Origin: a virus
Length of the DNA: 64,000 nt
Strand: one strand, 5' to 3'
Virus record (IMG/VR): IMGVR_UViG_3300043811_000074
Location: 1-64,000 of that record
Position numbers and translations under genes: made by a program. The notes beneath the pieces are model-generated. The model saw nothing but the letters and a program-made list of their open reading frames with translations. It ran no database searches and had not been told where the DNA came from. Below, one piece after another: positions 1 to 55,403 of this stretch (positions are counted from its first letter, which is position 1; each line of letters begins with the position of its first letter).

Positions 1-1
1 G

Positions 2-3000
2 CATACGACCCATCCCGAAGTCAAATCCACGGCAGAGCAACTGACCGAAGCGCGGACACAGCGCGAACTCCTCCAAGAGCAAATGCAGGTCATCCTCCTG
101 GAGCGCCAGAAGAAGCGCCTGGAGGGAATGGGCGACGAACGCGCCGGCTTGCTCCAAGAGGCGCGGCGGCTGGTGGAGGAACTGAAGCAGAAAAAGGAAA
201 ACGGCGAGCGGCTCACCGAGGATTGGTTCGATACCTGGACGCCCTGGAGCGGCGGTCTTGGCTTGGATGCAAACGGCTGGCATCGGCCCAATCTGCTCAT
301 TGACACGACGTTCTCACGGAAGGGCGGCAAGGACTGGCCGCGCATCTTCACCGAAATCGACCTGGACCGCGAACGCAATTTCTCCCGTCAGCTGATCTAC
401 GATAATGCGCACGCCAAGGGATTGCTCAGGAACTACTGCAATTACGTCATCGGTTCGGGGCCGAAGCTGAAATTCACACCACGTAATGACATTGGCGAAG
501 GCCACGAAGAACATGCCGAGAAACTTGCCAAGCTGGGCACGAAATATCTGGAGGGCTGGGCCAAACGGCAGAAGTTCGGTAAAACGGTTCGCGAGGCGCT
601 CTGGCGCATAAAACAAGACGGCGAAGCGTTTCTGCGTCACTACGTCTACAACGGCGAATTGGTACTGCGCTGGATTGAGCCGGTCTACATCCGCAACAAG
701 CCGGGCGGCACGGAGGCAGAAGGCTGGACGCTGGGCATTCAGCATCGGGTATTCAGTGACGGCACGGAGGACGTACAAACGATCATCAACTACCACGTCG
801 TCCATTCCACACTGTTGCAGCAGCATCGCGCGTGCGAGGGCGGTAAGGCGAAGTGGCCGACGCCGATTGAAGACGACAAGCGCACGGCGACGGGTGAAGT
901 CGTGCCGGCGCGGCGCATCTTGCACCTGAAGAATTTCGACACGCCTGGCACGGTCAAACGCGGCCTGCCGGAATTTCGCGGTGAGACAGCAGGCGGCTTG
1001 ATTCGTGCCTCGGCGCTCCTGTCCGCGACGATGGAAGGCAACACGGAGCGAGCTTTGATTGCCTGGGTCAATCAGTGGGCCAGTGCCACCAATGCCGGCA
1101 TCACGGCCTTTGCGCCGACAGGTGACGGCAGTGGGTTAGATACCTGCGGCCGGTTCTGGTTTGGAACGGGCAAGCGTGGACCGTATGAAGTCAACGTCCC
1201 CAAGGGGCATGAATATGTCGAGCGTCCGCACTCGGCAGATACGGCCAGTGATATAGAGGCATTTCAGGCCGGGCTGGGCGCGGGCGGGGTAACGTTCTGC
1301 GCTCCGAAGTATTGGCTGGGGGATACGGGCGATGCGTCGTATGCCTCCAGCAAAGAGTACGGTAGCCCGATCATGCGCGAGAGTGAGACGGCGCAAGAGG
1401 AACTGACAGAGCCGGTACGCCAGCTGGCCATGAAAGCTGTGCAGGTGCGTGTCCGGCGCGGTCAACTGCCGCCTGAACTCCTGCAATTCTGCGAACTGCA
1501 AGTCGAGATGCCGAAGCTGATGGTCCGGGACCGAGGCGAGACGATCAAGGAAGAAATGGAACTGGCCACGGTGCAGCCCGGCATGGCCGAGCCGGTCCAA
1601 TCCATGCAGACCACGCGAATGAATCTTGGCCTCAATCAGGACCAGGAAAAGAAAAACATCAAGCTGGAACAGAAAGAGAATCCGCCACCTGAAGCGCCGG
1701 GGCCGGGTGGACCAAAACCGCCTGATGGTGGCGGGCCACAGATTCCGACGCATGACGGGCCGCCGCGCCCGCCCGCGCCGACGGTGACGCAGCCGAAGAT
1801 GGAAGACAGGCCGGATCGGGTGCGTGAGTCCGCTTTGTCCGCCGTCCGTACCGCCGACTTCGCGGGCACAACCGGCCTTCAGGAATCGGCACAAGCCTTG
1901 CCGGTCTTCATTTATGGGACGTTGCTTGACCCGCGTGTTCGCGCCAAGGTTGTCGGCAACGTCTCCGAAGCGCCGGCGCAGTTGCCGGGTTACAAGAAGA
2001 CCGATGATCGGCATTATCCCGACCTGGACGCCGACAATGGCGAGAGTGTCGAGGGGATCGCGCTGGACGCCACGCCGGAGCAGATTGCGGCCCTGGACAA
2101 GTGGGAAGGGTCAGACGGCTACAAGCGTGTCAAGGTGACGCTGGCCGATGGGCAGCAGGCGTGGGCTTATACGCGACGGCAGGCGGTCAGGGAAGAACTG
2201 GACGTTGCCGGGCATCAGCACAAAGGCACTGGGCCGGGCGGCGGCCAGTTCACCAAAGGCGACGGTGGTAGCAAATCAACCGCCGAGAAAATCACGAGCG
2301 CCTTTCGCTCCGCTGCCAAATTCATGTCGAGCAAGGGAAAAGCGATTTACAACAAACTGCCGTCTCCTGTCCGCAAGGTGATTCAAGGCTATCTCAAGGC
2401 GCGATTCAGTCTCTATCTTGGCGCACAAGCAGCTGCCAAGTCGATACTCACGGAACGGCATGGGCCGGAGCGCGCCGAACAGGTTGGGCGCATCCTCTTG
2501 GCTGCGGATTGGGCCGGGCAGTTCGCTGGGACGCCGCTTGCTCCATTTACCGCTGGCGCATCGCTTACCAGTTCTTTCGTGCCGGTTGCATCCGTGGCTT
2601 ATTGCCTGTTCAGCACGGCAACGAACCCGGCCGCGACAATCAGGGCTGCGAAGAAAGCAATATCGGCGACGATGCAGCGCCTTGGCAATGTCGGCATGAC
2701 GCCGCGCTTGGCGGAAGAAATCAAAGACGATGTAGAAACCGTGGTCGATGCGATGGACGATCAGACGGATGGCGAATGGTTCACGGCGCTTGTGTGCGTT
2801 GCCCTTGACGAATGTAAGGGCGACATGGACGCGGCGCTTGAACTGGGCAGCGAAGCCGTGAAAAGCGAGCGACCGGAACAGGATGACGGCGATGACGATC
2901 TTGCGGACCTGTTCCGCCTCAACGAGGAGTACAACCCGGAGATACACGGCGGGTTTCTTGAATGGGAGAAGACGCAAAAACCGCAACAAATCCGCGAAAA

Positions 3001-8448: not shown

Positions 8449-9630
8449 ATGGCCGCTTTTCGTCGCGATGAAATCCGCAAGTTGTACCAGCTGACGGCAA
8501 ATCCGCTCGAGCGCATCACCGAAATGCTGGACGAGAAGATTTTGCGCCCCGACGATTTCAGCATCCGTGATACCTTCCTGGCCACAGTCGAGGACGGCGA
8601 AGAGGTTCTCCGCGCGATCGACCCACGCCGTAAGTCAGGTGGACAGCGGCTCACGGAAGCGTCGCTGAATGCGGTGCGCACCAGCGACTTCGCTGGTATT
8701 ACCGGCCAGCTAATTTTCAACAAGGTCAAGGAAGGGTACGAATACCCCGGCCTGCTCTGGCCGCAACTGGTTGATGAATGGAACACGACGTTTCTGGAAG
8801 GTGAAGTCGTGCCAGGTGTCGGCGAGATCGGGGCGGCAAACATTCAGGTCGTGAGCGAGGCAGAAGAGTTTCCCTATCTCGGTCTGAATGAGGAAAAAAT
8901 CACGTTTGGTCCGCTGGAGAAACGCGGCTTCATCGTCGCCATCACGCGCGAAATTTTGATTGCCGATAACACCGGCCTCATCATGCAACGGTCGAACAAC
9001 GGCGGCAAGTTTTTGTCCATCAACAAAGAACAGCGCGTCCTGAACGTGGTCACTGGTCAGGTCAATACCTACGTCCGCAACGGCGTGGCATCGAACACCT
9101 ACCAGACGAGCGGCAGCTACGTCAACAGCATCGCCAATCCACTGATCGACTGGCGGGCGCTCGAGACTGGTGAACTTCTGTTTGATGCCATCACCGATCC
9201 GAACACGGGCCTGCCGATCCTTCAGCAGATTGCCAAACTCAAGATTCTTGTGCCGTCAGCGCTCAAGCGCACGGCGGAGCGCATCATCCGTGGCACGCAA
9301 CTGCGGGTTGGCGATGGTGCTTCCTTCTCCAGCGCGACCTATACGCCGGTCACAGGCGGCGTGCCCGGTCAAGGCGCGGCCGGGATTAGCGACTATGGAC
9401 CGGTTCTGTCCAACGCCTTTGTCAAGCTGGCCACAAGTTCCGCAAGCCAATGGTTCACTGGCGATTTCCCGGGCGCATTTGTTTATCGCACGGCCTGGGA
9501 CATTGAGGACGTGACAAGCGGCGAACAATCGGAGGCCGCGTTCAATCGCGACGTGGTGTACCGCGTCAAGGTCAGCGAAATGGGCGCGCCGGGTACGCTG
9601 GAGCCAAGAAAAGCGCAACAGAACACCTAA
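8449..9630 (+). CDS. Major capsid protein
   Basis: 393 aa, preceded by GAGAGGTCAAGAC. Position, length and composition fit a phage major capsid protein with the HK97 fold. An N-terminal helical arm (residues 1-90) includes SLNAVRTSDFAGITGQ at 70-88. A central domain carries GLLWPQLVDEWNTTF and GPLEKRGFIVAITREILIADNT, and later blocks resemble Mu gpT-like and related head subunits (LKILVPSALKRTAERII). The motif at 70-88 is closely repeated in the portal fusion. It assembles the icosahedral shell after cleavage by the upstream protease. Confidence 0.85.
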   Translation: MAAFRRDEIRKLYQLTANPLERITEMLDEKILRPDDFSIRDTFLATVEDGEEVLRAIDPRRKSGGQRLTEASLNAVRTSDFAGITGQLIFNKVKEGYEYPGLLWPQLVDEWNTTFLEGEVVPGVGEIGAANIQVVSEAEEFPYLGLNEEKITFGPLEKRGFIVAITREILIADNTGLIMQRSNNGGKFLSINKEQRVLNVVTGQVNTYVRNGVASNTYQTSGSYVNSIANPLIDWRALETGELLFDAITDPNTGLPILQQIAKLKILVPSALKRTAERIIRGTQLRVGDGASFSSATYTPVTGGVPGQGAAGISDYGPVLSNAFVKLATSSASQWFTGDFPGAFVYRTAWDIEDVTSGEQSEAAFNRDVVYRVKVSEMGAPGTLEPRKAQQNT

Positions 9631-9686: not shown

Positions 9687-10136
9687 ATGGCCAAGAGCAA
9701 AGAAGAAATGGATACGCCAGCCGCCGAGAAGAACCAGAACATCGACCCCAGCATGTTTGCCATGTTCCAGCAATGGATGCAGGCGACGGTGACAGGGCCG
9801 GTGCAAGATCAACTTCAAGCGGCGAAGCGCGAACGTGAATCCATCGAGTTCCACGAAAAGCTGCGCGCTGAGATTTCCAAGCCGCTCAAGCAATCCAACC
9901 AAGAGAAGTTGGAAAAGCAGTTCGGCAATTGTCCGCTGCGCTTCAAAGTGTGGATGTCGGAAGTGGACAAGAAAACCGGCAAAGCGACTGAACCGCCAAC
10001 GGGCGAAATCGACAAATTTACTGGGATGCCGGCCCTGGAAATTCCGGCGCACAGCGAGGCAGAAGCGCGCGGCATCTACAACCAGTTTTGCGGCATTCGG
10101 TGGGCACAGACGCCAGCCCACGTCAAGCAACTGTAA
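9687..10136 (+). CDS. Head-associated hypothetical protein (149 aa)
   Basis: Preceded by GGGAGAGTGAGTC. The N-terminal ~75 residues are a charged helix or coiled coil; the rest is a compact polar domain with a conserved-looking end (GIYNQFCGIRWAQTPAHVKQ). Its position right after the capsid gene suggests a head-completion or decoration role. No family is recognised. Confidence 0.6.
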   Translation: MAKSKEEMDTPAAEKNQNIDPSMFAMFQQWMQATVTGPVQDQLQAAKRERESIEFHEKLRAEISKPLKQSNQEKLEKQFGNCPLRFKVWMSEVDKKTGKATEPPTGEIDKFTGMPALEIPAHSEAEARGIYNQFCGIRWAQTPAHVKQL

Positions 10137-10152
10137 CCGTTGAGGTTTTCCA

Positions 10153-11064
10153 ATGGCTTATGATTTTCTCGTTGCCAGTGGTCAACTGCCCGCCAGTGCT
10201 GGCCTGTTGCTCAACGGCAGTGCCATGCAGGTTCCTGGCACAGGTCTGCGTGGCGTTTTCGCCAATGTCGGTGCCAGTACGGAGACGGTGATTATCACCC
10301 TGACTCCGGTTGCGCCGCAGACTGTGACGGCCCGGCGCATTGCCAAGGCGATTCTTGCGCCGGGCGACATTCTCTACCTCAGTGGCATCAACCTGCCTTC
10401 GGGTTGTTTGCTGAACGGGCAGACGACCGATGCCACGAGTGTTGATTACACCATTTACGGCACGGTCGGCTCGGACAGCGGCCCTGTTGAGGCATTCGTA
10501 CAAACTTCGAACGGCTCGCGCAAGAGCGTTAGCAGTGGCGGCCTGGTCACGACGCAGACTCAGGGGGCAAATGGCCTTTTCGCCACACCATTGCCCATGT
10601 TGGCCTGGAAGAACACGGACGGCACAACGCTTGCCGCCGCTGCCTCTGCCGGCAAGTTCGGCATGACGGTGACGCTGGCGACGGCAGCTTTTCTGCTCGG
10701 TGAAGTGGCGAACACGAACACCAAGACCGATGATGCCCTTCAGGAGTTTGATCTGCCGCCGTGGTATGTGGCGGGCAGTAACCTGACCGTCAATGTCAAC
10801 GCGAGCATCAATGGGGCTGGCACGCCGGGAACCAAGACGGCACAAATTAAGTGCTATCGCACAGCCAGCGACGGCACGCAAGGCGCGGACATCGGGCCGG
10901 GCACAACGGGAGCCATTACTGTCGCTGGCGCGGACATTCCGTTTACCATTACCGGCACGACGCTGAATCCTGGTGATCGGGTGATGTTTGAATTGGAAGT
11001 CGTGCTGCAAGAGACGGGCGGCACGAACATCAATGCGAAGGTCAACAGCGCCAGGGTGAGTTAA
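10153..11064 (+). CDS. Beta-rich virion protein (303 aa)
   Basis: GAGG precedes the ATG by a normal distance. The composition is Gly/Thr/Ala/Val rich with few charges, typical of phage structural beta proteins; the C-terminal half (from ~residue 200) resembles an immunoglobulin-like sandwich. It sits between head genes and decoration-like paralogues. Specific role unknown. Its stop overlaps the next start by one base. Confidence 0.6.
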   Translation: MAYDFLVASGQLPASAGLLLNGSAMQVPGTGLRGVFANVGASTETVIITLTPVAPQTVTARRIAKAILAPGDILYLSGINLPSGCLLNGQTTDATSVDYTIYGTVGSDSGPVEAFVQTSNGSRKSVSSGGLVTTQTQGANGLFATPLPMLAWKNTDGTTLAAAASAGKFGMTVTLATAAFLLGEVANTNTKTDDALQEFDLPPWYVAGSNLTVNVNASINGAGTPGTKTAQIKCYRTASDGTQGADIGPGTTGAITVAGADIPFTITGTTLNPGDRVMFELEVVLQETGGTNINAKVNSARVS

Positions 11065-11381
11065 TGCGTGTGAAGAAAATTTCCGCCGTGTCCACGATCC
11101 ACGCGAATCAGATTGTGGCCGGTGTCGCAGGGCAAAGGATTTTCGTCTATGCCTATCACCTGTCCTTTTCGGGCACGGTCAACGCCAAATGGCAGGACGG
11201 CAGCACGGACCTGACTGGTTTGGATTATGGGGTTGCGGGCGTGATTTCCGACAGCCCGACCACGAAAGGACAAATGGGTAGTGCGCCGCTTTTTAGTTGT
11301 GCGGCAGGAGACGACCTGAATTTGAATCTGAGCGTTGGTTCGGTCCCGGTCAGTGGCTATGTGGTCTATGACCAAAGGTAA
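11064..11381 (+). CDS. Decoration-like small beta protein, copy 1
   Basis: 105 aa. The pattern 'IVAGVAGQRIFVYAYHLSF ... VNAKWQDGSTDLTG ... L.L..SVPVSGYVVY' matches a widespread small phage structural protein with an all-beta fold that I associate with head decoration or tail surface. It is a tandem duplicate of the next gene, aligning over its full length. TAATG overlap with the upstream gene. Confidence 0.7.
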   Translation: MRVKKISAVSTIHANQIVAGVAGQRIFVYAYHLSFSGTVNAKWQDGSTDLTGLDYGVAGVISDSPTTKGQMGSAPLFSCAAGDDLNLNLSVGSVPVSGYVVYDQR

Positions 11382-11383
11382 AC

Positions 11384-11695
11384 ATGCCAGCAACAGCCAT
11401 AGTCCAGGTATCGGCAACTGGCGCAATCGTGGCTGCAGTGGCGGGGCAACGCATAACGGTTTGGTCCTATCACCTGAGTTTCGCCGGCTCGGTGAATGTC
11501 AAGTGGCAGGACGGGGCCAGCACCGACTTGACGGGTTTGGATTACGGCGCGGCGAACATAATCTCGAACAGTCCACCCGTGACGGATCAACAGGGCAAAA
11601 GTTTTCTGTTTCGGACTTCATTGGGCAATGCGTTGTACCTGAACCTGTCCGGCGCGGTGGCGGTTGGCGGGTATGTGATTTACGAACAGGGGTAA
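11384..11695 (+). CDS. Decoration-like small beta protein, copy 2
   Basis: 103 aa, starting two bases after the stop of copy 1. It shares the same block order (AAVAGQRITVWSYHLSF, VKWQDG, TDLTGLDYG, VGGYVIYEQG). The two copies agree at roughly half of positions by eye, so the duplication is old rather than an assembly artefact. The proteins probably occupy related sites on the virion. Confidence 0.7.
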   Translation: MPATAIVQVSATGAIVAAVAGQRITVWSYHLSFAGSVNVKWQDGASTDLTGLDYGAANIISNSPPVTDQQGKSFLFRTSLGNALYLNLSGAVAVGGYVIYEQG

Positions 11696-11716
11696 AGCGC
11701 AACGGAAGAGAACCTG

Positions 11717-11944
11717 ATGACTGACATTAAGATACCAGCATGGGCCAAACTGCGACGTTGCGGCGGTGGCTATAAGGTGATGCTGCAAGATGGCGCTATA
11801 CTCCACGGTTTGTACAAGCGAAAATGCGTGCCGGTTGTGGGTTTCTATGTTTGCGCCAGCGACCGCGCTGCCCAACGAATCATGCGTGGTTTGCAATGGA
11901 TGCGTGAGACGATTTATAAGCATACTGGCATAACGCCGGTGTAA
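11717..11944 (+). CDS. Small basic hypothetical protein (75 aa)
   Basis: Preceded by GGAAGAGAACCTG. It has three Cys residues, a central beta segment (GGGYKVMLQDGAILHG) and a C-terminal amphipathic helix. No family is recognised. It lies between decoration-like and connector-like genes. Confidence 0.55.
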   Translation: MTDIKIPAWAKLRRCGGGYKVMLQDGAILHGLYKRKCVPVVGFYVCASDRAAQRIMRGLQWMRETIYKHTGITPV

Positions 11945-11946
11945 AC

Positions 11947-12627
11947 ATGGCGACGCGCATGGGCCTCTTCGATTTCTTCAGGCCCAAACCTGTTTTGCAG
12001 AGACCGATTCAAGCGCCCGGTTTGTTTGACGTGATGAGGCCGCGAGTGGAACCGAATACGCTTGACCACTTTTTGAAGGGCTACACGATCTTTCCCGATG
12101 CCGGCAGCATTATGTCGGCGCGGTATGTGAGCGAGCGGCAGCAGCTTGAAATCATGGACCATGCGGCTGGCCTGCACACTTACGACGATGTTGACGCGGT
12201 GATGGCGGAACAGTTTTATTCGACCGATAACAAGGATCAATGGCTTGCCGACACCTACCAAAAAACCGCGCATCGGCCAGTGGATTTGGGCAGACCGATT
12301 GAGCCGCAGGACATTCGGGTGACGGCAGACCCAGCGCACATGAAGGCATTCGTCGATGGCCATTTGACGCTGCACTTTACGAGCAGTTTCGGCCCGGTCG
12401 TGGCGAAGTATGACCCGAAGAAAGAAGCCCTGGGGTGTGTGTTCAAAAGCGGCTTTGTCGGGACATACCTGAATGTGCCGAAGAGCGAAGCGGAATCGCT
12501 GGCGGCATCGACAAGCAAAGGCAAGTGGTTCCATGCTCACGTTAAGTTAGGGTACAATCCTGACCGGACATGGATTCATCGTTATCCTCTGGTTCGGAAC
12601 ACCTGGGTCGATCAGTACGCGGGGTAA
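11947..12627 (+). CDS. KTSC-domain protein (226 aa)
   Basis: The C-terminal part (residues ~145-205) reads as a KTSC domain: a KYDPKKEALGCVFKSG strand pair, TYLNVPKSEAESLAAS, then KGKWFHAHVK. KTSC domains are small beta-alpha domains common in phage and prophage proteins, with unclear function. Residues ~55-105 (SARYVSERQQLEIMDHAAG ... KDQWLADTYQK) have the same spacing and look like a degenerate second copy. The start follows the previous stop by two bases. Confidence 0.65.
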   Translation: MATRMGLFDFFRPKPVLQRPIQAPGLFDVMRPRVEPNTLDHFLKGYTIFPDAGSIMSARYVSERQQLEIMDHAAGLHTYDDVDAVMAEQFYSTDNKDQWLADTYQKTAHRPVDLGRPIEPQDIRVTADPAHMKAFVDGHLTLHFTSSFGPVVAKYDPKKEALGCVFKSGFVGTYLNVPKSEAESLAASTSKGKWFHAHVKLGYNPDRTWIHRYPLVRNTWVDQYAG

Positions 12628-12630
12628 GCC

Positions 12631-12894
12631 GTGAGCGTCGCCACTCAACTGACGAACATTAATGCGGCGCTGGACGCTATGACGGCGGAAGTCGCGGCAA
12701 TGGCGACGAACCCGAAGCCCTATTATGTCATCCCGCCCAATATGGCTGGCGCGGGCAGTACGATTTCTGCCGTGGAGTATCGCAAGTTCCTGAGCGAGCA
12801 GATTGATGCGCTGATCGAACAGCGGCAGAAAGTGGAAGAGCCTTGGCAGGTGAATCGCTCTTTGGGCAATCGTGGCTGGCGCGGAGGCTGGTAA
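12631..12894 (+). CDS. Small head-tail region protein (87 aa), GTG start
   Basis: GTG is preceded by GGGGTAAGCC. The N-terminal half is a heptad-like helix and the C-terminus is Arg/Trp/Gly rich. The gene runs directly into the next ATG (stop TAA then ATG). Its position suggests a connector accessory protein; no family is recognised. Confidence 0.55.
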   Translation: MSVATQLTNINAALDAMTAEVAAMATNPKPYYVIPPNMAGAGSTISAVEYRKFLSEQIDALIEQRQKVEEPWQVNRSLGNRGWRGGW

Positions 12895-30345: not shown

Positions 30346-30915
30346 ATGCACATTTTCCGCCGTTGCACAGGTCTCTTATCCGTTGGCTTTATGGGTTCGG
30401 GTCTGTACGTCGGCGCGGCTCTTATCGCTGAAGCCTCAACGGACCCGCTCAGCGGCAATACGGGCTGGATAGGGGCCGGGTTGTTGGGCGCTGTGTTGGC
30501 GTGGCTGATGTTCGTTCACCTGCCAGGGTTGCAAAAACAACTCAGGGAGTTTGTCGCTGAGAAAGACTGCCAGATAAGAGAGCTGATGAAGGCGGCTGCT
30601 GAGGAGAGGCAAAAGGACAGAGAATCAAGACAGAACGCCAATGAAGTCTTCCGGCAAATGCTAGGAGCGATCCAGAAGCAATACGACGACAACAGAGAGG
30701 TTGATCGCAAGGCGTTTGAGGGCCGAAACGCCATACTGGTAGGGGCCATAGAGAAACAGACTCTTGCTATCGTTGCCGCACAGAATGAGCAATCTGCCCG
30801 GATTGTCAAGGAAATGGATGGCACTTGGCAGAAGCTCGCTGGCGCGCTCAGCAACATAGTTCCCAACGGGGACATGCCGCCCGGCAGGGGCGGTCCAAGA
30901 AGGGAGCGGGACTGA
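30346..30915 (+). CDS. Membrane-anchored coiled-coil protein (189 aa)
   Basis: AGGAG at 30336-30340 fixes the ATG at 30346. Two transmembrane helices (LSVGFMGSGLYVGAALIA and WIGAGLLGAVLAWLMFV) are followed by ~110 residues of charged coiled coil. Phage proteins of this plan occur near lysis or superinfection functions; no specific family is seen. It overlaps the next gene as TGATG. Confidence 0.6.
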   Translation: MHIFRRCTGLLSVGFMGSGLYVGAALIAEASTDPLSGNTGWIGAGLLGAVLAWLMFVHLPGLQKQLREFVAEKDCQIRELMKAAAEERQKDRESRQNANEVFRQMLGAIQKQYDDNREVDRKAFEGRNAILVGAIEKQTLAIVAAQNEQSARIVKEMDGTWQKLAGALSNIVPNGDMPPGRGGPRRERD

Positions 30916-32122: not shown

Positions 32123-32344
32123 ATGACCGAACCCCGCACAGTCGGCCCTGGACAGACCGAAATCAGCGAATATCAGGCGCTGACGCTGATCCTGCGCCAG
32201 CTGGCGGACCTCAAAGCCACGGTGGACACCATCGCGCAGGCCGTATTAACTCAAGATCAGGTCGATGCCTTGACCGCACAGCTCAAAGCCAGTAACGATC
32301 AACTCCAAGCCGCTCTCAACCCAACGAAAGAGGAACCAACATGA
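32123..32344 (+). CDS. Small coiled-coil protein (73 aa)
   Basis: The ATG at 32123 is preferred to an upstream in-frame ATG inside the previous gene. It is an amphipathic helix (ALTLILRQLADLKATVDTIA then VDALTAQLKASNDQLQAAL). Its stop overlaps the next ATG; the two proteins look related and may pair. Confidence 0.55.
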   Translation: MTEPRTVGPGQTEISEYQALTLILRQLADLKATVDTIAQAVLTQDQVDALTAQLKASNDQLQAALNPTKEEPT

Positions 32345-32586: not shown

Positions 32587-32665
32587 TCGTTCGGTTCGTT
32601 GTGGCGCTCGCTCCGGCTTCCAGTAGTTCTGGTCGGGGCGGGCGTTTTCTCTACGGCGCAGGATC

Positions 32666-32785
32666 ATGCACGATTCGCCGCCACCCATATCTTCCTGGCG
32701 TATCTTCTGCCTCTTCGTGGCCCTGGTGCTGCTGGGCGCGATGCTGTTCGCCTGCCTGATCTTCTTTCTGTGGGGGCCGCCGTGA
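32666..32785 (+). CDS. Tiny single-helix membrane protein (39 aa)
   Basis: The ORF ends in a GTGA overlap with the cytochrome gene start. After a short Pro/Ser N-terminus it is one hydrophobic helix (FCLFVALVLLGAMLFACLIFF). Coupling to the secreted cytochrome suggests co-expression; function unknown. Confidence 0.5.
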   Translation: MHDSPPPISSWRIFCLFVALVLLGAMLFACLIFFLWGPP

Positions 32786-34332
32786 CCGCACGCACACAAC
32801 TTGCGGCCCTGTTCTTCGCCTACCTCTGCGCGGTCGCACGAGTACAGGCCCAGCCTGCCGAGTGGTGGCTGCGCAGTCCCGCTGATCAGGTTATGGCCGC
32901 AGCAGAAGACATTCAAAAGTACCCCCCGGAAATAGCGCAGTACATCCGCTATCTGGACCTGGCTCAGCTGACGCCAAAGCAGCGCGGGGAGTTGTACGTC
33001 GTCTACTGTGGACACCTGCAACACCTCTCGACGCGCACCAGCATCACCAATGCCAAGCCGGTCCTTGGCAACGGCGGTTCGCTCCTGCGCATCAACGCGC
33101 TGGACTACGGCAAAAGTTTCGCCGGAGCGTGGGAGAACCTGAAAGAGTTTGACCCCTACTTTCATCAGCGGTTCAAGACGACGGCGGACGTGCAGACGAA
33201 AAAAAGCTACTACTGGCCGGGCGGCAAGGGCGACGACGGCGAAGAGTACCCGGCCGGGACGTACTATCGTACGGTGACGATCAAGAAAAACACCGTCACG
33301 AATCTGCCCGCGCCGTGGCTGTCGCCGACCCCATCGCACAAGGCGGCGCTGACGAAACTGTACGCGCTCTCCAAGAGCGAGATTCCGATTGTCCATGCCG
33401 ATTGGTTCCTCTGGCAGACGGCGATTCAGGAGGATCGGGGACCGGCAGGGTATTACGATTTCCTCGGCGTGAAAGATCAGGCGTCTTACGAAAAGATCAT
33501 CGGCTTTTCGCAGAAGGTATTCGACGGCATAGGCAAGGTGGAATTACGCGCCGCCGTGGGCATCTCCGGGGTGACGTTGCAACCCCGCGCCATCGCCCGC
33601 TTCGGTGCGGTGGATTCTCCCTATTGGAAGACGTTTGACTTCCGGCTTGCTACTGGCGATAAAAACCCGCTGCAAGTGCTGGGCAAGGACATTGAAAAAG
33701 ATTTCGATGCGAGCGAGACTTTTGGTGTCTTGCCGAACGGCTTTTGGATTACCGGCCTGTTCAATAAAAAGGGCGAAGTCGTCAACTCGGCGCCCCCTGA
33801 CATCGCGGGCAACCATCTGGCGCGGGGCAATGACAAGCGCGTCCACGTCAACCTGTCTTGCATCGAATGTCATAGCAACGCGGGCTTGCAGGATTTTTCC
33901 GACTGGATCAAGCACATGGTGACGCCGCCGCCCGCGAACCAGTTGATCGGGCTGGACTATGAAGATTTGCTGCTCAAGCGCGATCAGTACCTACGGCAGT
34001 TGAAACCGTTTCTGTCCAAGGATAGGATAACGTACACGGAAGCCGTGCGCGAAGCCACGGGCATGAAGCCGCCTGAGTACGCGAAAGCCTACGCCGATGC
34101 GTGGTACAGCTACGATCAGGCGCAAGTCAATCTGGCCTGGGTGAGCCGCGACCTCGGCATTCCAGAGAAAGAACTGCGAACGATTTTGGGCAGCATGGTG
34201 TCAACGTGGAAGGGTGATTTGGTGCTGACCGCGCTCTTGAAAGACGACGGCACACACCTGCCGATCAGACAATATCATGAGAGCCTTGGGCGGATCATGG
34301 AAGCGGCGGTATCTTACGCGAGGAAGAAATGA
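32782..34332 (+). CDS. Secreted mono-heme c-type cytochrome-like protein (516 aa)
   Basis: GTG 32782 gives a good signal peptide (TARTQLAALFFAYLCAVARVQA, cut near AQA-QP), so it is preferred over the in-frame start at 32599. A CIECH heme-attachment motif lies at residues 360-364 inside NLSCIECHSNAG. The large N-terminal domain has no recognised family, and the ~120 residues after the heme motif are helical. c-type cytochromes carry electrons in the periplasm; here the partner is unknown. Such a protein is unexpected in a phage late region. Confidence 0.7.
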   Translation: MTARTQLAALFFAYLCAVARVQAQPAEWWLRSPADQVMAAAEDIQKYPPEIAQYIRYLDLAQLTPKQRGELYVVYCGHLQHLSTRTSITNAKPVLGNGGSLLRINALDYGKSFAGAWENLKEFDPYFHQRFKTTADVQTKKSYYWPGGKGDDGEEYPAGTYYRTVTIKKNTVTNLPAPWLSPTPSHKAALTKLYALSKSEIPIVHADWFLWQTAIQEDRGPAGYYDFLGVKDQASYEKIIGFSQKVFDGIGKVELRAAVGISGVTLQPRAIARFGAVDSPYWKTFDFRLATGDKNPLQVLGKDIEKDFDASETFGVLPNGFWITGLFNKKGEVVNSAPPDIAGNHLARGNDKRVHVNLSCIECHSNAGLQDFSDWIKHMVTPPPANQLIGLDYEDLLLKRDQYLRQLKPFLSKDRITYTEAVREATGMKPPEYAKAYADAWYSYDQAQVNLAWVSRDLGIPEKELRTILGSMVSTWKGDLVLTALLKDDGTHLPIRQYHESLGRIMEAAVSYARKK

Positions 34333-34973: not shown

Positions 34974-35654
34974 ATGCGAACGCTTTTTCTGATCCTGATT
35001 CCCGTGCTGGCGCTCTGTGCCATTCCGGGCAGCGCCGATGCGACCGGCTGCCACGTCAGCCCGTCCTACGTCAGCAGCTACAGCTACTACACGCCGAGCT
35101 ATAGCTACACCCCGACCTACGCCACGCTCGCCACAACTTTCGTCCCGGTGTTCGTGCCGAGCTACGGCGTGGGCTACTCCGGGGCGGCCAGCACGACCTC
35201 GACCACCAGCGGCAGCAGCGCCGATCTGTTGCAGTTGCAGCTGGAAATCGAAAGATTAAAGGGAAATTACAAGGACCTTCAGATACAATACCTACAGGAC
35301 AAGGCCAAGGGCGTCGCTGCTGTTGCACCACAGGCACCTTACCAGCCGCCGCCTCAGAAGGCGCAAGAGCCGTTGCCGAAGCCTGTAGGCGTCAATCCGG
35401 CCCTGCAAATCGCGTCGGCACGGTGCGCCGCCTGCCATGACGAGACGAATGCCAAGGCGAAGGGGAATAACTTCCTCTTGTTCAAAGGCGGCCGGATGGA
35501 CCACCTGACGCCGGCCGACAAGCTGCTGGTCCAGAAGGAGGTCTGGACCGGCCGGATGCCGAAAACGGGTGCGAAGCTCTCCGATCAGGAAATCTCCGTG
35601 CTGATTGAAGACCTGATCGGCGCAACGCCGCAAGTCACCCCGGAAAAGAAGTGA
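34974..35654 (+). CDS. Secreted c-type cytochrome with Tyr-rich N-terminus (226 aa)
   Basis: GGGAG upstream and a clear signal peptide (RTLFLILIPVLALCAIPGSADA). A Ser/Tyr-rich segment (residues 25-75) is followed by a coiled coil and a Pro/Gln linker. The C-terminal domain has the heme motif CAACH at 151-155 and a Met at ~195 (TGRMPKTG) in the right place for the distal ligand, with closing helices as in class I cytochromes c. It is probably periplasmic or surface exposed. Resembles planctomycete secreted proteins. Confidence 0.75.
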   Translation: MRTLFLILIPVLALCAIPGSADATGCHVSPSYVSSYSYYTPSYSYTPTYATLATTFVPVFVPSYGVGYSGAASTTSTTSGSSADLLQLQLEIERLKGNYKDLQIQYLQDKAKGVAAVAPQAPYQPPPQKAQEPLPKPVGVNPALQIASARCAACHDETNAKAKGNNFLLFKGGRMDHLTPADKLLVQKEVWTGRMPKTGAKLSDQEISVLIEDLIGATPQVTPEKK

Positions 35655-35661
35655 GACGAAT

Positions 35662-35886
35662 ATGGAACCGGCCTTTTGGCTCTTGATGGTGTTGTCCTGG
35701 GTAACGTTCGCTGTTGCCATGATTTCAACCCACTGCGCCTATCGGAACGGTGTCACGGACGGCTATGGTTACGCGAAGGAACCTGGCTGTCCTGGTTATC
35801 GTGCCGCTGGTGAGTACCTGAAGAAACGAATGGCCCATCGGTGGCCTGAACTAAAGTCTCAACCTCAAAAGGAGTCCCAACCATGA
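35662..35886 (+). CDS. Small membrane protein (74 aa)
   Basis: One N-terminal transmembrane helix (AFWLLMVLSWVTFAVAMIS) precedes a polar tail with Cys and Pro. ATGA overlap with the next secreted-protein gene. Function unknown. Confidence 0.5.
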   Translation: MEPAFWLLMVLSWVTFAVAMISTHCAYRNGVTDGYGYAKEPGCPGYRAAGEYLKKRMAHRWPELKSQPQKESQP

Positions 35887-36410
35887 AAACGATGCTCGCT
35901 CTGTTCGCCCTGATCGCCCTGACCGTCTCGGCTCAGGCGCAATGCGTCGGCCCGACGGCCAGCTTCAGCTACAGCAGCGCCGTGGTCTGCCCGCAGGTGA
36001 TCGTCCCCAGCGTGCAAATTGTGCAGCCGCAGGTGATTGTCCAACCGGCCTTTGTGCAGACCTACGCCGTGCCCGCCGTGACAGTTTGCCCGCAAGTGCA
36101 GGTCCAGGCGGCTTTCGTGCCCAGCGTGTCCTACGGTGCGAATTTCGCGGCTGTGGGCTATGGTGGGGCGCAATTCAATACCTTCGGCGCGCATGCGTCC
36201 TTTAACCGCTTCAACACATTCCACGGTGTCGGCATCAACCGCTTCGGCTTCCATGCGGGCGGCTTCGGGGCAAGTGCTGCCGTCGTCAACGGTGGGTTTG
36301 GGGCGTCGGCTTCGCTGGTGAGCGGTAATTCGGCGATTGCCGCAGCCGGAGCCAACAGCGTCAAAATCAGGAAGGGTCTTTTCGGTCGCACGATTGTCAA
36401 GGCCAAGTGA
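35883..36410 (+). CDS. Secreted Val/Gln/Phe-rich protein, planctomycete type (175 aa)
   Basis: A signal peptide (KTMLALFALIALTVSAQAQ) is followed by low-complexity strands built on PQVIVPSVQIVQPQVIVQP and later Phe/Asn/Gly-rich repeats. The C-terminus ends in a basic IRKGLFGRTIVKAK. Similar small secreted low-complexity proteins are common in planctomycetes. It ends just before a bidirectional terminator. Confidence 0.65.
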   Translation: MKTMLALFALIALTVSAQAQCVGPTASFSYSSAVVCPQVIVPSVQIVQPQVIVQPAFVQTYAVPAVTVCPQVQVQAAFVPSVSYGANFAAVGYGGAQFNTFGAHASFNRFNTFHGVGINRFGFHAGGFGASAAVVNGGFGASASLVSGNSAIAAAGANSVKIRKGLFGRTIVKAK

Positions 36411-36435: not shown

Positions 36436-36471
36436 AAAACCGGCAAGGGACAACCAACCTTGCCGGTTTTT
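36436..36471. terminator. Bidirectional intrinsic terminator
   Basis: AAAACCGGCAAGG (36436-36448) pairs perfectly with CCTTGCCGGTTTT (36458-36470) around a 9-nt loop, with A and T runs on both sides. It lies between the convergent genes ending at 36410 (plus) and 36470 (minus) and can stop both. Confidence 0.9.
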
Positions 36472-37129
36472 ATTTCACAACCAGCAGGTCGATCAGCGCC
36501 TGCACTTCCGATTTCGACAGGCCGGGTTGCACTCGTGTCATCTTCTTCGCGAGCGAGGCGTCCAGATCATTTATGCTCGTTGGCCGCGAACTGCCCCATG
36601 TCACTTTCAGCGTCGTCTCCGTGACAGAGTAGATCGCCAGGACGGGGCAATTAGTCTTCTTACCTTCAAACAGCAAGTCCATGCGCTTTGGCGTCGTGTT
36701 CGGATTGATCTTGATAACGTACTCCATGTTCGCCAACGATGGTGGCCAGTCATCGCAGTTTTTCACCAGCTTGTTGCCGTCGATAGTCCAGCGCTCCGTC
36801 GTAACCGTCCGGTCGAGCGACTGCGTATCCGGCCAGGATTGCTCCCACGTCCCTTGCAGTAGTTCGGCATCGTGCTTTGACAATTTCTTATCAACGAACG
36901 CCTTAAAATCTGCTGTACCTTTCTTCCAAAGAGCAAATTCTTTCTCTAGTTCTTCGGGGCAGTCCTGAACAACGGGAACGGAAACAGCCGCCCAATGAAC
37001 ATTGGCGCAGTGCTGGTGCGGCGACGGTCCTAATAGCCAGCATAAGAGGACGACAGTTGCCATGCTGACGCCAATGCCGAACAGACTGCCGACAAGTTCC
37101 GGCGAGATGGACTTCTGTTGATTGCTCAT
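36470..37129 (-). CDS. Membrane-anchored TIGR03067-like planctomycete protein (219 aa)
   Basis: An N-terminal transmembrane helix (LFGIGVSMATVVLLCWLLG) precedes a domain whose blocks match the planctomycete TIGR03067 family: LLQGTWEQSWPDTQSLD, ERWTIDGNKLV, NTTPKRMDLLFEGKK, VLAIYSVTETTLKVTWG and RPTSINDLD. This lipocalin-like family has unknown function and is abundant in Gemmata relatives, so it marks the host lineage. The C-terminal 35 residues (VQPGLSKSEVQALIDLL) echo the helix that ends cytochrome c domains. Opposite strand to its phage neighbours. Confidence 0.75.
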   Translation of the reverse strand: MSNQQKSISPELVGSLFGIGVSMATVVLLCWLLGPSPHQHCANVHWAAVSVPVVQDCPEELEKEFALWKKGTADFKAFVDKKLSKHDAELLQGTWEQSWPDTQSLDRTVTTERWTIDGNKLVKNCDDWPPSLANMEYVIKINPNTTPKRMDLLFEGKKTNCPVLAIYSVTETTLKVTWGSSRPTSINDLDASLAKKMTRVQPGLSKSEVQALIDLLVVK

Positions 37130-37435: not shown

Positions 37436-37777
37436 ATGGCAATCAGTTATCTTCCCCCAACCGACGCGCAGGCGCTCGAGGCGCTCACCGATGCGCAGAG
37501 CCAGCTGGCGGGCACGCCGGACAAGGGCGCGCTGGCCTGGGATGTTGTCACCCTGACCGCCTACGGCGTCTCCAAGGGCATCGACCTGAGTGGCCTCGTT
37601 ACCATGCCGCAGACGCGCATGGACAACCACGCGGCGCGTGCCAAGGCGCTCATCGACCCACTCCTGGCCGATCCCAAGGGCATCAACTGGCAAAACTTCG
37701 GCAACATTCTGAAAACTTTGCTTCCGATATTGCTCGGTCTTCTTTCCGGCCTGGGCGGTGGAACCACGGGCAGCTAG
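37436..37777 (+). CDS. Hypothetical protein with hydrophobic C-terminus (113 aa)
   Basis: GGGAG precedes the ATG. The helical N-terminal domain is followed by a hydrophobic Gly/Leu-rich end (ILKTLLPILLGLLSGLGGG) that could insert in a membrane. It is followed by an intrinsic terminator and may be a single-gene unit. No family is recognised. Confidence 0.55.
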   Translation: MAISYLPPTDAQALEALTDAQSQLAGTPDKGALAWDVVTLTAYGVSKGIDLSGLVTMPQTRMDNHAARAKALIDPLLADPKGINWQNFGNILKTLLPILLGLLSGLGGGTTGS

Positions 37778-37798: not shown

Positions 37799-37837
37799 AC
37801 TCCGGCCTTCACTATACCTCCGAAGGCCGGAGTTTTT
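37799..37837 (+). terminator. Intrinsic terminator
   Basis: ACTCCGGCCTTC and GAAGGCCGGAGT form a perfect 12-bp stem (loop 11 nt) followed by TTTTT. It isolates the 113-aa gene from the peptidase unit. Confidence 0.9.
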
Positions 37838-37850
37838 CGGAGTTCCCTTC

Positions 37851-38009
37851 ATGCTGACCCGACGCATTCTCGCCGCGGCATTCATTCCAGCAATCTTTGT
37901 CTGGTTTTTCCTCTGCTTCATTGCCGACTCCCCCAGCGCCGAAGCTGACTTGCACTGGCTTTTTCGCAAACTCGGCTGGGAGAATTTGCTCTTTCCCAAC
38001 ATCCCCTGA
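37851..38009 (+). CDS. Small membrane protein upstream of the S53 peptidase (52 aa)
   Basis: The N-terminal transmembrane helix (ILAAAFIPAIFVWFFLCFIA) is followed by a polar/aromatic tail. Only 12 nt separate it from the sedolisin gene, so they are probably co-expressed. A pinholin-like or release role is an inference from this pairing. Confidence 0.5.
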   Translation: MLTRRILAAAFIPAIFVWFFLCFIADSPSAEADLHWLFRKLGWENLLFPNIP

Positions 38010-38021
38010 CAGGAGACTCGC

Positions 38022-39305
38022 ATGGTCGCTTTCGCGCGTTCTTACATCAAGTACCGGGACAAGCCTGGCAGTTTCATCAAACGACCGCACGCCGCCAGTC
38101 AGTCCTACGCGCCAGGGCAAATCTGCCGCGATTACAATTGGCCCAACGGCATCGCAGTACAACCGCTCACCATTGCCATCATGGAACTCGGTGGCCACTT
38201 CTACCCTTCCGACCTCTCGCCGTGGGCAGCGCGGGCCAATCTGCCGGTTCCCGTGGTCAATACTTTCATGCTGCCCGGCGCGGACGATTCGCCTTCGGAC
38301 GCTGACGGCGAGGTCATGTTAGATGTCTTTTGCGCTGCGCAGGCGTACTCTTCCGTCACCGGCCTGCCCGCGAAAATTCTCATCGTCTATGGCCCCAACA
38401 CGGGGCAGGCGTTCGCGGACATTACCGAATACTGCAACACGCTGACCGGCATCGGCTCCGGTTCCGGTTCGTGGGGCACGGCGGAAACCAACTCGGCAGA
38501 TTCAGACCGCGCCAACTTGGACGCACAACTGCAAAGAGCGCTGTTTCCGTGGCATTACGCCAGTGGCGACAATGGTTCCAATGATGGGACGAACACGCCG
38601 ACAGCCGATTGGCCTTCGTGCAGTCCTTACCTTGCCAGCTGTGGCGGCACGTCCAAGGTTCCCGGCTCGGGCGCGGAAACGGTCTGGAACAATGGCAATG
38701 GCGAGGGGACGGGCGGCGGCTTTTCCAAGTTCTACGGGCGCCCGATCTGGCAACCGGCGAACACTCAGGGCACAGGCCGCATGGTTCCCGATTGGGCAGC
38801 GGTCGCCGATCCGAACACCGGCTATGACACGCTCATCAATGGCAGCTGGCAAGTGATCGGCGGCACATCCGCCGTCGCTCCACTCTTGGCCGGGTTCATG
38901 TGCGCCGTCAACGGGGCGCGGCTCAAGCTGGGTCTGCCGATGATCGCGCAACCCAATCAAATGATCTGGTCGATGTTGAGCAGCTATTACGACATCATTT
39001 CCGGCTCCAATGGCGCGTACAACGCCGAAGCTGGGCCTGACCCCTGTTCCGGGGCCGGGCGGCCCACGGCAACCACGTTCGCCATGATGACCGGAGCCAG
39101 TCAGGTTCCGCCTGTGCTGCCGCCTCCGGTCAACTCCCCGCCCGTAAATCCGCCGCCTGCAACGCCGGCCTTTGTCCTGACCGTGCCGACGCCGATCAGG
39201 GCCGGGCAGACGTTCAAGATCAAGGCAGGCAAAGCAATCGCAGCAGGCAAGTACGATTGCTTCCCGTCAAGCGGCGCGGCGGACGCAGAAGTATTCGCCG
39301 ACTGA
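38022..39305 (+). CDS. Sedolisin-type serine-carboxyl peptidase (S53)
   Basis: CAGGAGACTCGC precedes the ATG. The protein (427 aa) carries all sedolisin hallmarks: IAIMELGGHF (51-60), catalytic Glu97/Asp101 in DGEVMLDVF, the oxyanion Asp183 in YASGDNGSNDG, SPYLASCGGT (201-210), and the catalytic Ser283 in VIGGTSAVAPLLAG; the Ca-site-like end GPDPCSGAG follows. There is no N-terminal pro-domain and no signal peptide, unlike typical secreted sedolisins. A Pro-rich linker and ~50-residue C-terminal domain follow. S53 enzymes are acid endopeptidases. In a phage this could be a lysis or virion enzyme. Confidence 0.85.
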   Translation: MVAFARSYIKYRDKPGSFIKRPHAASQSYAPGQICRDYNWPNGIAVQPLTIAIMELGGHFYPSDLSPWAARANLPVPVVNTFMLPGADDSPSDADGEVMLDVFCAAQAYSSVTGLPAKILIVYGPNTGQAFADITEYCNTLTGIGSGSGSWGTAETNSADSDRANLDAQLQRALFPWHYASGDNGSNDGTNTPTADWPSCSPYLASCGGTSKVPGSGAETVWNNGNGEGTGGGFSKFYGRPIWQPANTQGTGRMVPDWAAVADPNTGYDTLINGSWQVIGGTSAVAPLLAGFMCAVNGARLKLGLPMIAQPNQMIWSMLSSYYDIISGSNGAYNAEAGPDPCSGAGRPTATTFAMMTGASQVPPVLPPPVNSPPVNPPPATPAFVLTVPTPIRAGQTFKIKAGKAIAAGKYDCFPSSGAADAEVFAD

Positions 39306-39875: not shown

Positions 39876-39967
39876 TACGGGGAGCGGGATTTGCACCCGC
39901 ACGGGCCTTTTGAGGGGGTTCCCACCGGTTCCCAAAACCGGCGCGTCTGCTGTTCCGCCATCCCCGC
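39876..39967 (-). tRNA. Class II (Leu-type) tRNA with UGG anticodon, possibly degenerate
   Basis: The minus strand folds as a cloverleaf. The acceptor is GCGGGGA/TCCCCGT (first pair G-U), discriminator A73. The D arm is TGGCGGAACAGCAGACGC of Leu type. The anticodon arm is CCGGT-TTTGGGA-ACCGG, giving anticodon TGG. The variable arm is long (about 24 nt), and the T arm is GCGGG-TGCAAAT-CCCGC. No CCA is encoded. A long variable arm with A73 is typical of tRNA-Leu, whereas UGG reads proline codons. The D loop has only one of the usual GG pair and the T loop has G where U55 is expected, so it may be weakly functional. Confidence 0.7.
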
Positions 39968-54165: not shown

Positions 54166-55403
54166 GAATTAACCGGCCTGGAAGCCACCGCCTGAAGAGC
54201 GGTGGAGGAAAGGCCGCTCCTAAAAATAACTACCGACCTTGCTAGGGAGCGCCGCGATCCCTATAATCAAGCAATGAAGCTAACGCTGCAACTCAAGCTG
54301 CTGCCCGATGCTGACCAAAGCGCCGCGCTGCTGGACACCATGCGCCGGTTCAACGCAGCCGCTTCTTTCGCTGCCGAACAGGGTTTTGCGGCTAGTGTTT
54401 TCTCCAAGCCGAGTATCCAAAAACTCTGTTACTACGATCTTCGCAAATATTTCAAGCTGTCCGCACAAATGGCCATTCGCGCCATTGCCAAAGCAGCAGA
54501 AGCGTTTGTCGCGAACAAGGCTGTTTGCCCTGAGTTTCGGCCTGACGGAGCAATGGCCTACGATGAACGAATCCTGTCCTTCAAAGACTGTCACCGCGTC
54601 AGCATCTTGACAGTGAGTCTCGGGCGCGTCCTCTTGCCCTACGTCTTCGGTGAGTATCAGGCAGCGAACCTTGATCGCATCCGTGGCCAGTGTGACCTTG
54701 TGTACCGGGACGGTAACTTTTTCCTCTATTGCACCATCGAATTTCAGGAAGCGCCGCCCGTTGAAGTTCGAGACTTCCTTGGCATCGACCTTGGCATCGT
54801 CAACATCGCCACGGATAGCGAAGGCGAAGCGTTCTCCGGCAAGACAGTTGACAGGAACCGCCGCCGCCGCCAGACCGCACGGAAGCAATACCAGCGGCGC
54901 GGAACCAAAAACGCCAAGCGCCGGCTCAAGCGTATGAGCGGACGGCAACGGCGTTTTCAAACATGGGTCAACCACGGCATTAGCAAGCAAGTGGTGATGA
55001 AAGCAAAGGCACTCGGCGTCGGGATCGGCTTGGAGGATTTGTCCTTCATCCGCTCGCGCATCGAGCCAACGGTTTCCAAACGCTTTCGCCGCCGCTTCGG
55101 GAATTGGGGTTTCTGCCAACTTCGGGCGTTCATTGAGTACAAGGCATTCCGCGAAGGCATTCCGGTCGTGACGGTCGATCCCCGCAACAGTAGCCGGACG
55201 TGCAGCGTCTGCGGCCACTGTGAGAAGGGCAACCGTCCCGATCAGGAAACCTTTCGCTGCAAACACTGCGATTTCTCCATGAATGCCGACTATAACGCTT
55301 CCCGGAACATCCGGGATTGGGCCAAAAGTAAACTGGCCTCAAAAATCGCGACTGCCCAGGTCAGTGATAAAGCCGTCTGCCTTTAGGCGACGGTCAGTTT
55401 ACT
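54166..55403 (+). mobile_element. TnpB-only IS200/IS605-type element
   Basis: The element carries tnpB but no tnpA (IS1341-like). The left end has a hairpin CCACCGC/GCGGTGG (54185-54205). The right end has an imperfect hairpin CCGTC(T)GCC/GGCGACGG (55373-55393) and AGTAAACTG (55327-55335) pairing with CAGTTTACT (55395-55403), as expected for an omega-RNA scaffold that overlaps the tnpB 3' end. It sits on plus inside the minus early operon. Exact ends are approximate. Confidence 0.7.
54274..55386 (+). CDS. tnpB: TnpB RNA-guided nuclease (IS200/IS605)
   Basis: ATG 54274 gives a normal TnpB N-terminus (KLTLQLKLLPDADQSAAL). RuvC residues are intact: Asp172 (FLGIDLGIVN), Glu254 (GIGLEDLSFI) and Asp339 (SMNADYNASR); a zinc finger C310/C313/C329/C332 lies between (TCSVCGHCEKG and FRCKHC). 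370 aa is the usual size. TnpB cuts DNA next to a short TAM guided by an omega-RNA made from the element right end, which helps element retention. Apparently active by sequence. Confidence 0.9.
   Translation: MKLTLQLKLLPDADQSAALLDTMRRFNAAASFAAEQGFAASVFSKPSIQKLCYYDLRKYFKLSAQMAIRAIAKAAEAFVANKAVCPEFRPDGAMAYDERILSFKDCHRVSILTVSLGRVLLPYVFGEYQAANLDRIRGQCDLVYRDGNFFLYCTIEFQEAPPVEVRDFLGIDLGIVNIATDSEGEAFSGKTVDRNRRRRQTARKQYQRRGTKNAKRRLKRMSGRQRRFQTWVNHGISKQVVMKAKALGVGIGLEDLSFIRSRIEPTVSKRFRRRFGNWGFCQLRAFIEYKAFREGIPVVTVDPRNSSRTCSVCGHCEKGNRPDQETFRCKHCDFSMNADYNASRNIRDWAKSKLASKIATAQVSDKAVCL

Follow-up and report, generated by a model that had tools for sequence, protein, structure and literature searches.

Proteases of the MEROPS family S53, the kumamolisins and sedolisins, are active at acid pH, and their folding involves a pro-domain. 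For endolysins of phages, two solutions to the problem of export are known, an N-terminal hydrophobic segment of their own and a fused membrane domain. Peptidases of methanogen phages have been described that act on a different polymer: PeiW and PeiP are pseudomurein endoisopeptidases, which cut the isopeptide bond in pseudomurein (PMC4592898). In the planctomycetes, the genes for peptidoglycan are absent from most Planctomycetales, including the Gemmataceae, and the wall has cysteine-rich YTV proteins (PMC8567305), while in Planctopirus limnophila most peptidoglycan-synthesis genes are not essential (PMC10632474). A literature search revealed no paper on phage sedolisins or on the CxxCH/protease module that is described below. 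The lytic proteins of prokaryotic viruses were surveyed in 2025, and a text search of that survey (PMC12596118) for planctomycetes, sedolisins, subtilisins, and papains gave no match.

The stretch of DNA that was analyzed, the window, comprises positions 1 to 64,000 of the IMG/VR record IMGVR_UViG_3300043811_000074, which has a full length of 72,720 bp. The first and the last 127 bases of the record form an exact direct terminal repeat, and, thus, the phage genome is complete. Portal, capsid, tail, and replication functions were found among the called genes when the whole genome was scanned with Pfam and PHROG models. The following features were used in the analysis:

1-127, plus strand: left copy of the terminal repeat (right copy at 72594-72720 of the record)
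8449-9630, plus strand: major capsid protein, the anchor for finding the relatives G016-G020 and G003
30346-30915, plus strand: protein with membrane segments and a coiled coil ('GWIGAGLLG'), homologue in L141
30915-31307, plus strand: protein with an N-terminal membrane segment and a coiled coil; L143 and G002/L011 have homologues close to the module
32599-34332, plus strand: CxxCH1, secreted, one invariant CxxCH motif, start at 32599 (TTG) or 32770 (GTG)
34974-35654, plus strand: CxxCH2, with signal peptide, Tyr-rich region, and C-terminal cytochrome c-like domain (weak Cytochrome_CBB3 match)
35883-36410, plus strand: secreted protein of 175 aa, rich in Val, Gln, and Phe (by inspection)
36470-37129, minus strand: membrane protein with the Planctomycete domain TIGR03067 (35.2 bits against a cut-off of 40.15 bits)
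37436-37777, plus strand: protein of 113 aa with an amphipathic/hydrophobic C-terminus (GINWQNFGNILKTLLPILLGLL)
37799-37834, plus strand: intrinsic terminator with a 12-bp stem followed by TTTTT (z=-5.0), past the upstream operon and ahead of the 52-aa ORF and the S53 gene
37851-38009, plus strand: ORF of 52 aa with one hydrophobic segment, 12 nt ahead of the S53 gene
38022-39305, plus strand: S53 (kumamolisin-like) protease, 427 aa, ATG start
39114-39302, plus strand: Pro-rich linker and C-terminal segment of about 45 residues of the S53 protease (..vPAG..f.i....I..GkY..P), by profile

The host is probably a planctomycete, a group that is indicated by the TIGR03067 domain (below the cut-off) together with the PSCyt1 domain, which the CxxCH2 relative of phage L145 matched above the cut-off. 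Several further features of the genome were observed. The gene at 83-5356 (plus strand) encodes a protein of 1757 aa with a portal-like region (Phage_portal_2, just below the cut-off), a gamma-glutamylcyclotransferase-like (GGACT) domain, and a SAP-like segment. A TnpB/IS605 OrfB-type transposase with a Cas12f1-like TNB domain is encoded within the early region (54274-55386, plus strand), and a gene for tRNA-Pro (tgg) is located between the late and the early gene blocks (39876-39967, minus strand). Matches to Hom_end_hint, Hom_end, and LAGLIDADG, assigned to the right half of the genome and not to a certain gene, suggest that a replication or packaging gene in this half contains an intein or a homing endonuclease.

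A reading of the sequence alone had assigned the gene at 38022-39305 to the sedolisins and had listed Glu97, Asp101, Asp183, and Ser283 as a complete set of catalytic residues. Both claims were verified. A phmmer search of PDB chains revealed a match to pro-kumamolisin (1t1e) with an E-value of 1.4e-42, in which residues 6-364 were aligned, and an AlphaFold2 model (mean pLDDT 79.9, pTM 0.81) matched kumamolisin-As in Foldseek (E 7.5e-27, TM-score by target 0.82). The Pfam, PHROG, and NCBIfam models gave no match. The four residues aligned to kumamolisin and were invariant in an alignment of 24 viral homologues. The protein has the catalytic Glu, Asp, and Ser of the family, including the oxyanion Asp, and a predicted subtilisin-like fold of the S53 type, and, judged from alignment and model, it is an S53-class enzyme with intact catalytic residues. 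Also in agreement with the earlier description, the enzyme has neither a pro-domain nor a signal peptide. In kumamolisin, the first aligned residues fall within the linker that comes after its pro-domain. Only four codons 5' of the start are open in frame, and, thus, the protein consists of linker and catalytic domain without pro-domain. No signal-like hydrophobic segment was seen at its N-terminus.

Alignment-based scans of IMG/VR yielded about 27 distinct S53 loci. The pro-domain is missing in nearly all of the viral enzymes, with L022 as the exception, and among the proteases examined there was one clear exception with a signal-like N-terminus, the S53 enzyme of G003, which has an N-terminal hydrophobic segment. 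In three phages outside the CxxCH1 module, L019 (9695-11023), L020, and L024, an N-terminal membrane domain is fused in frame to the S53 domain. In the S53 tree the window enzyme grouped with those of L010 and L011 at 100/100, the S53 genes linked to the module were found at a minimum of four separate places, and the nearest relatives found were viral, in a sampling that contained few bacterial and no planctomycete sequences. The C-terminal segment (39114-39302) was common only to the S53 enzymes of G002/L011, G003/L012, G013/L023, and, by eye, L150. It was also considered as a shared virion-docking domain, which was rejected, as the profile matched S53 proteins only.

A different arrangement was observed in L014, a phage of another kind. 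At 9812-12681 an S53 gene is located between a 54-aa membrane gene with two segments and genes for a lysozyme-like protein (below the cut-off), a membrane protein, and a lipoprotein, and this looks like a lysis cassette. The lysozyme-like neighbour of 138 aa was not counted as evidence for an endolysin: its match to PF00959 was below the cut-off (E 0.0074), T4 lysozyme was matched in the PDB at E 0.67, and the expected catalytic residues were not recognisable by eye.

Two secreted proteins with haem motifs, CxxCH1 and CxxCH2, are encoded upstream of the protease gene. The haem pair and the swapping of protease classes described below were both absent from the sequence-only reading. A scan anchored on CxxCH1 yielded 26 loci and one more in a phage of 595 kb from INPHARED; when duplicates were collapsed and the window and G001 were added, the number of distinct phages with CxxCH1 was 25, including that of 595 kb. 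This phage, LR756511, contains the one relative of CxxCH1 in INPHARED, which has no relatives of the S53 enzyme or the capsid protein of the window, and no relatives of CxxCH1 were found among plasmids. A signal-like N-terminus is usual in both haem-motif proteins. For the fold of CxxCH1 no PDB match was obtained by profile, nor by structure (none with E<0.001). Homologues of both proteins were found near the S53 genes of G001 and G003, and, by clustering or inspection, both are also present in G013/L023 and L011; in G002 CxxCH1 was found. Among these phages, G003 alone shares the capsid gene of the window. In relatives, small secreted proteins resembling that at 35883-36410 come after CxxCH2 (by inspection).

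In the 595-kb phage (L164, LR756511.1:473329-494675) a C1 protease, CxxCH1, CxxCH2, and a secreted protein are encoded together, and tblastn placed CxxCH1 at one further position of this record. Three phages with large genomes, L147, L148, and L149, have the CxxCH1/CxxCH2 pair and no recognised protease nearby. A trypsin-like (S1-like) candidate is present in L149 (13230-13934), with catalytic motifs that look degenerate.

A protease gene was found near CxxCH1 in 19 of the 25 distinct phages; in all of these it shared the strand of CxxCH1, and mostly it was the direct neighbour. The remaining 6 of the 25 have no recognised protease of the families named here near CxxCH1. The term slot is used for a position within about ten genes of CxxCH1 or, in the capsid-gene relatives, beside the homologue of 37436-37777 or after the tail genes. 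The families that were found in the slot, i.e., S53, subtilase S8, papain-like C1, matrixin M10, and astacin-like M12A, are mutually unrelated. An S53 enzyme is present in six phages (window, L010, L138, L142, L144, L150), a subtilase in another six (L141, L151, L153, L158, L162, L163), a papain-like enzyme in four (L139, L145, L160, L164), and a metalloprotease with the motif HExxHxxGxxH in three (L146, L159, L161). Pfam matches over the cut-off were obtained for S8 (to 2.4e-53), C1 (1.1e-16), M10 (1.9e-12), and astacin (4.6e-6); the protease of L139 had no Pfam match and matched the cysteine protease 3ois at 9e-39. The capsid-gene relatives have a C1 protease over the cut-off (G016), a C1-like protease by motif only (G017), an S8 protease by motif and position (G018), and an M10 protease (G020). 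CxxCH1 was not found in G016, G017, and G020, which also lack S53, and, thus, a phage can retain a protease in the absence of the haem protein. The genes of the relatives were called with a simple codon-bias script, and many of the records are metagenomic contigs, some of them incomplete.

As a control, motif rules for the proteases were applied. In 24 CxxCH1 loci, which together comprise 445 kb, they detected 15 protease ORFs. Ten capsid-gene loci (156 kb) gave none, and in eight whole genomes (524 kb) the slot copies were the only ones detected. The rules were strict, and the C1 protease of G016 and the S8 protease of G018 were missed. In the reciprocal test, CxxCH1 was found within 10 kb in 3 of the 54 viral C1 loci, and all three were already known. 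Thus, CxxCH1 is predictive of a protease, but the haem pair cannot be predicted from a C1 protease, and the weak reverse association indicates that such proteases circulate widely in phages and are recruited by the module. The 54 loci (L165-L218) encode papain-like proteases of the xylellain type without signal peptide, and some of them (L180, L218) directly adjoin spanin- or holin-like genes. The swapping of enzymes in a conserved slot indicates that the phages maintain the protease function and exchange the enzyme that provides it. The S53 gene of the window is best explained as the local occupant of this slot, which is conserved, open to different protease classes, and part of a late module of planctomycete phages.

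The small membrane protein that had been noted 12 nt upstream of the S53 gene is indeed encoded there, by the 52-aa ORF, and AGGAG precedes the S53 start codon. No homologue of the ORF was found, and its sequence is not conserved in the relatives; its product may be a holin-like partner. The strong terminator just upstream indicates that the ORF and the S53 gene form a unit that is separate from, or attenuated compared to, the upstream operon. In several phages a membrane or membrane-plus-coiled-coil gene is located directly upstream of the protease gene, with overlaps of 4 nt in L145 and L161 and with 12 nt in L141, as in the window; the gene in L141, which precedes an S8 protease, is the homologue of 30346-30915. 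In several other phages the gene before the protease does not encode a membrane protein. A membrane gene was directly upstream of only 8 of the 22 proteases, a number that includes the 52-aa ORF of the window. Homologues of the 113-aa protein (37436-37777) adjoin the protease in G016, G017, L141, and L150.

As in the 64 kb of the window, no lysin was recognised with Pfam and PHROG models among the called genes of the complete 72,720-bp genome, which includes the part that had been missing from the sequence-only reading. A lysozyme fragment (PF00959) at 32138-32275 was rejected as spurious; the match is below the cut-off, covers 45 model positions, and is located in a coiled-coil-like protein of 73 aa. 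When 28 module phages were scanned for six known families of peptidoglycan hydrolases (Amidase_2, Phage_lysozyme, SLT, M23, GH19, M15_4), a set that hydrolases of other families could escape, a single match was over the cut-off, an M23 domain in the 595-kb phage. The holin and spanin models gave no good match to module proteins; a weak match of L145 to Phage_holin_9 was below the cut-off. The window protein itself is composed of an S53 catalytic domain, a linker, and a tail, and it has no peptidoglycan-cleaving domain as an endolysin would.

We assign about even chances to the proposal that the slot protease is endolysin-like, is released late via a membrane protein, and cuts the protein wall of planctomycetes. 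Synthesis of the protease would take place in the cytoplasm and yield just the catalytic domain, to which a Pro-rich linker and a C-terminal tail are often added. Late in infection, a phage membrane protein, which may be holin-like or, in some relatives, a fused or signal-anchor segment, would give it access to the envelope. It would then cut the cross-linked protein wall that stands in for peptidoglycan in many planctomycetes, and the two secreted CxxCH proteins of the module would act in this compartment as well. We infer the release route, the substrate, and lysis as the purpose from position and absence. That a protein wall makes a protease lysin sensible had been argued before, and with peptidoglycan genes absent and YTV proteins in the wall (PMC8567305) a protein-cutting lysin is plausible. 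The earlier idea of a protease lysin with a holin-like partner gained from the lack of a conventional endolysin and from the conserved slot; it lost with respect to the 52-aa partner, which is not sequence-conserved. If the requirement of the phage is for proteolysis as such, several unrelated families in one slot are to be expected. The haem proteins, which have no place in known lysis systems, argue against a lysin, as do the missing pro-domain, in view of the folding of known S53 enzymes, and the acid pH of the latter. In addition, S53 and C1 proteases need not be lysins everywhere, because many phages with them are without CxxCH1 (51 of the 54 C1 loci) and because GH19 or M15_4 enzymes are encoded in 2 of the 18 other S53 records. 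The results suggest that planctomycete phages leave or enter their hosts by digesting a protein wall. An extension of the proposal, namely that the swappable protease and the two secreted haem c proteins dismantle the cysteine-rich wall by proteolysis and redox chemistry and form an undescribed machine, is unlikely.

Somewhat improbable is a virion-associated protease for entry, which would be packaged in or on the tail, docked there by its linker and tail, and would digest surface-layer or wall protein. Such an enzyme would not need a signal peptide, its gene comes after the tail and fibre genes, a flexible linker and a short tail are present in many of the proteases, and an exchange of classes would suit changing surface proteins. 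However, the C-terminal segment is absent from other proteins of these phages, the C-terminal tails differ between protease classes, and the gene is located with those for secreted proteins and past a terminator, not among the tail genes. Alternatively, the module could remodel the envelope during infection (superinfection exclusion, surface change, respiration/redox), with the haem proteins as the main effectors and the protease processing or clearing targets. No other partners are as constant as the two secreted haem-motif proteins, and the module is retained from contigs of about 30 kb to the 595-kb phage. Nearly all of the proteases are without an export signal, whereas CxxCH1 and CxxCH2 usually have one, and the protease is kept where CxxCH1 was not found (G016, G017, G020), which makes envelope remodelling quite unlikely. 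A protease that acts inside the cell, in the takeover of the host or in the maturation of virions, would fit the cytoplasmic location, and phages use proteases in head maturation; this role is very improbable, because a head-maturation protease (phrog_133) is already present among the called structural genes of the phage, because S53, S8, C1, M10, and M12A enzymes are typically extracellular, and because the S53 gene is far from the head genes. That the gene is a host-derived moron without conserved function, here by chance, which the lack of a match to the window S53 in INPHARED phages would allow, is hardly credible and is contradicted by the results, since it is no recent host transfer without a conserved neighbourhood: phages whose capsids are unrelated share the neighbourhood, the closest S53 relatives, in a sampling with few bacterial and no planctomycete sequences, are viral, and one and the same place is repeatedly occupied by proteases of several families.

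Taken together, the slot proteases, about twenty enzymes, are concrete candidates for the exit of tailed phages from bacteria that lack or barely need peptidoglycan. If the lysin proposal is true, they would help to open planctomycete cells for genetics, and pseudomurein would no longer be the only unusual wall to which phage lysis is known to be matched. CxxCH1, with a fold without PDB match, is an uncharacterised phage family in its own right, and if the haem proteins are essential to the process, this would be a new kind of system.

Compared with known systems, the window protein is like kumamolisin and sedolisin in its catalytic domain, the Glu/Asp/Asp/Ser residues, and the fold. The viral homologues differ in that nearly all are without pro-domain and signal peptide, and in the relatives of the window enzyme a Pro-rich linker and a small C-terminal segment have been added. 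The C1 proteases of the slot have their counterpart in the xylellain-like papain proteases (PDB 3ois, matched by L139), but the phage slot copies are without pro-region, and the majority of the viral C1 loci show no linkage to the two haem-motif proteins. The likeness to PeiW and PeiP is in the proposed role, i.e., phage peptidases that act on a host wall other than peptidoglycan; those enzymes are of the C71 type and have pseudomurein-binding repeats, whereas the window enzyme belongs to S53 and the genome has no such Pfam match, no sequence relationship to PeiW and PeiP was observed, and we know of no swapping of protease families for them. In contrast to holin-endolysin cassettes, the hydrolases here are proteases with two constant secreted haem-motif partners and no recognised holin or spanin. 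The organisation is nevertheless like that of such cassettes: a hydrolase that would be made in the cytoplasm is encoded in the late region, small membrane genes often come directly before it, the catalytic family is exchanged at one locus, and variants with an apparent signal-anchor or a fused membrane domain occur.
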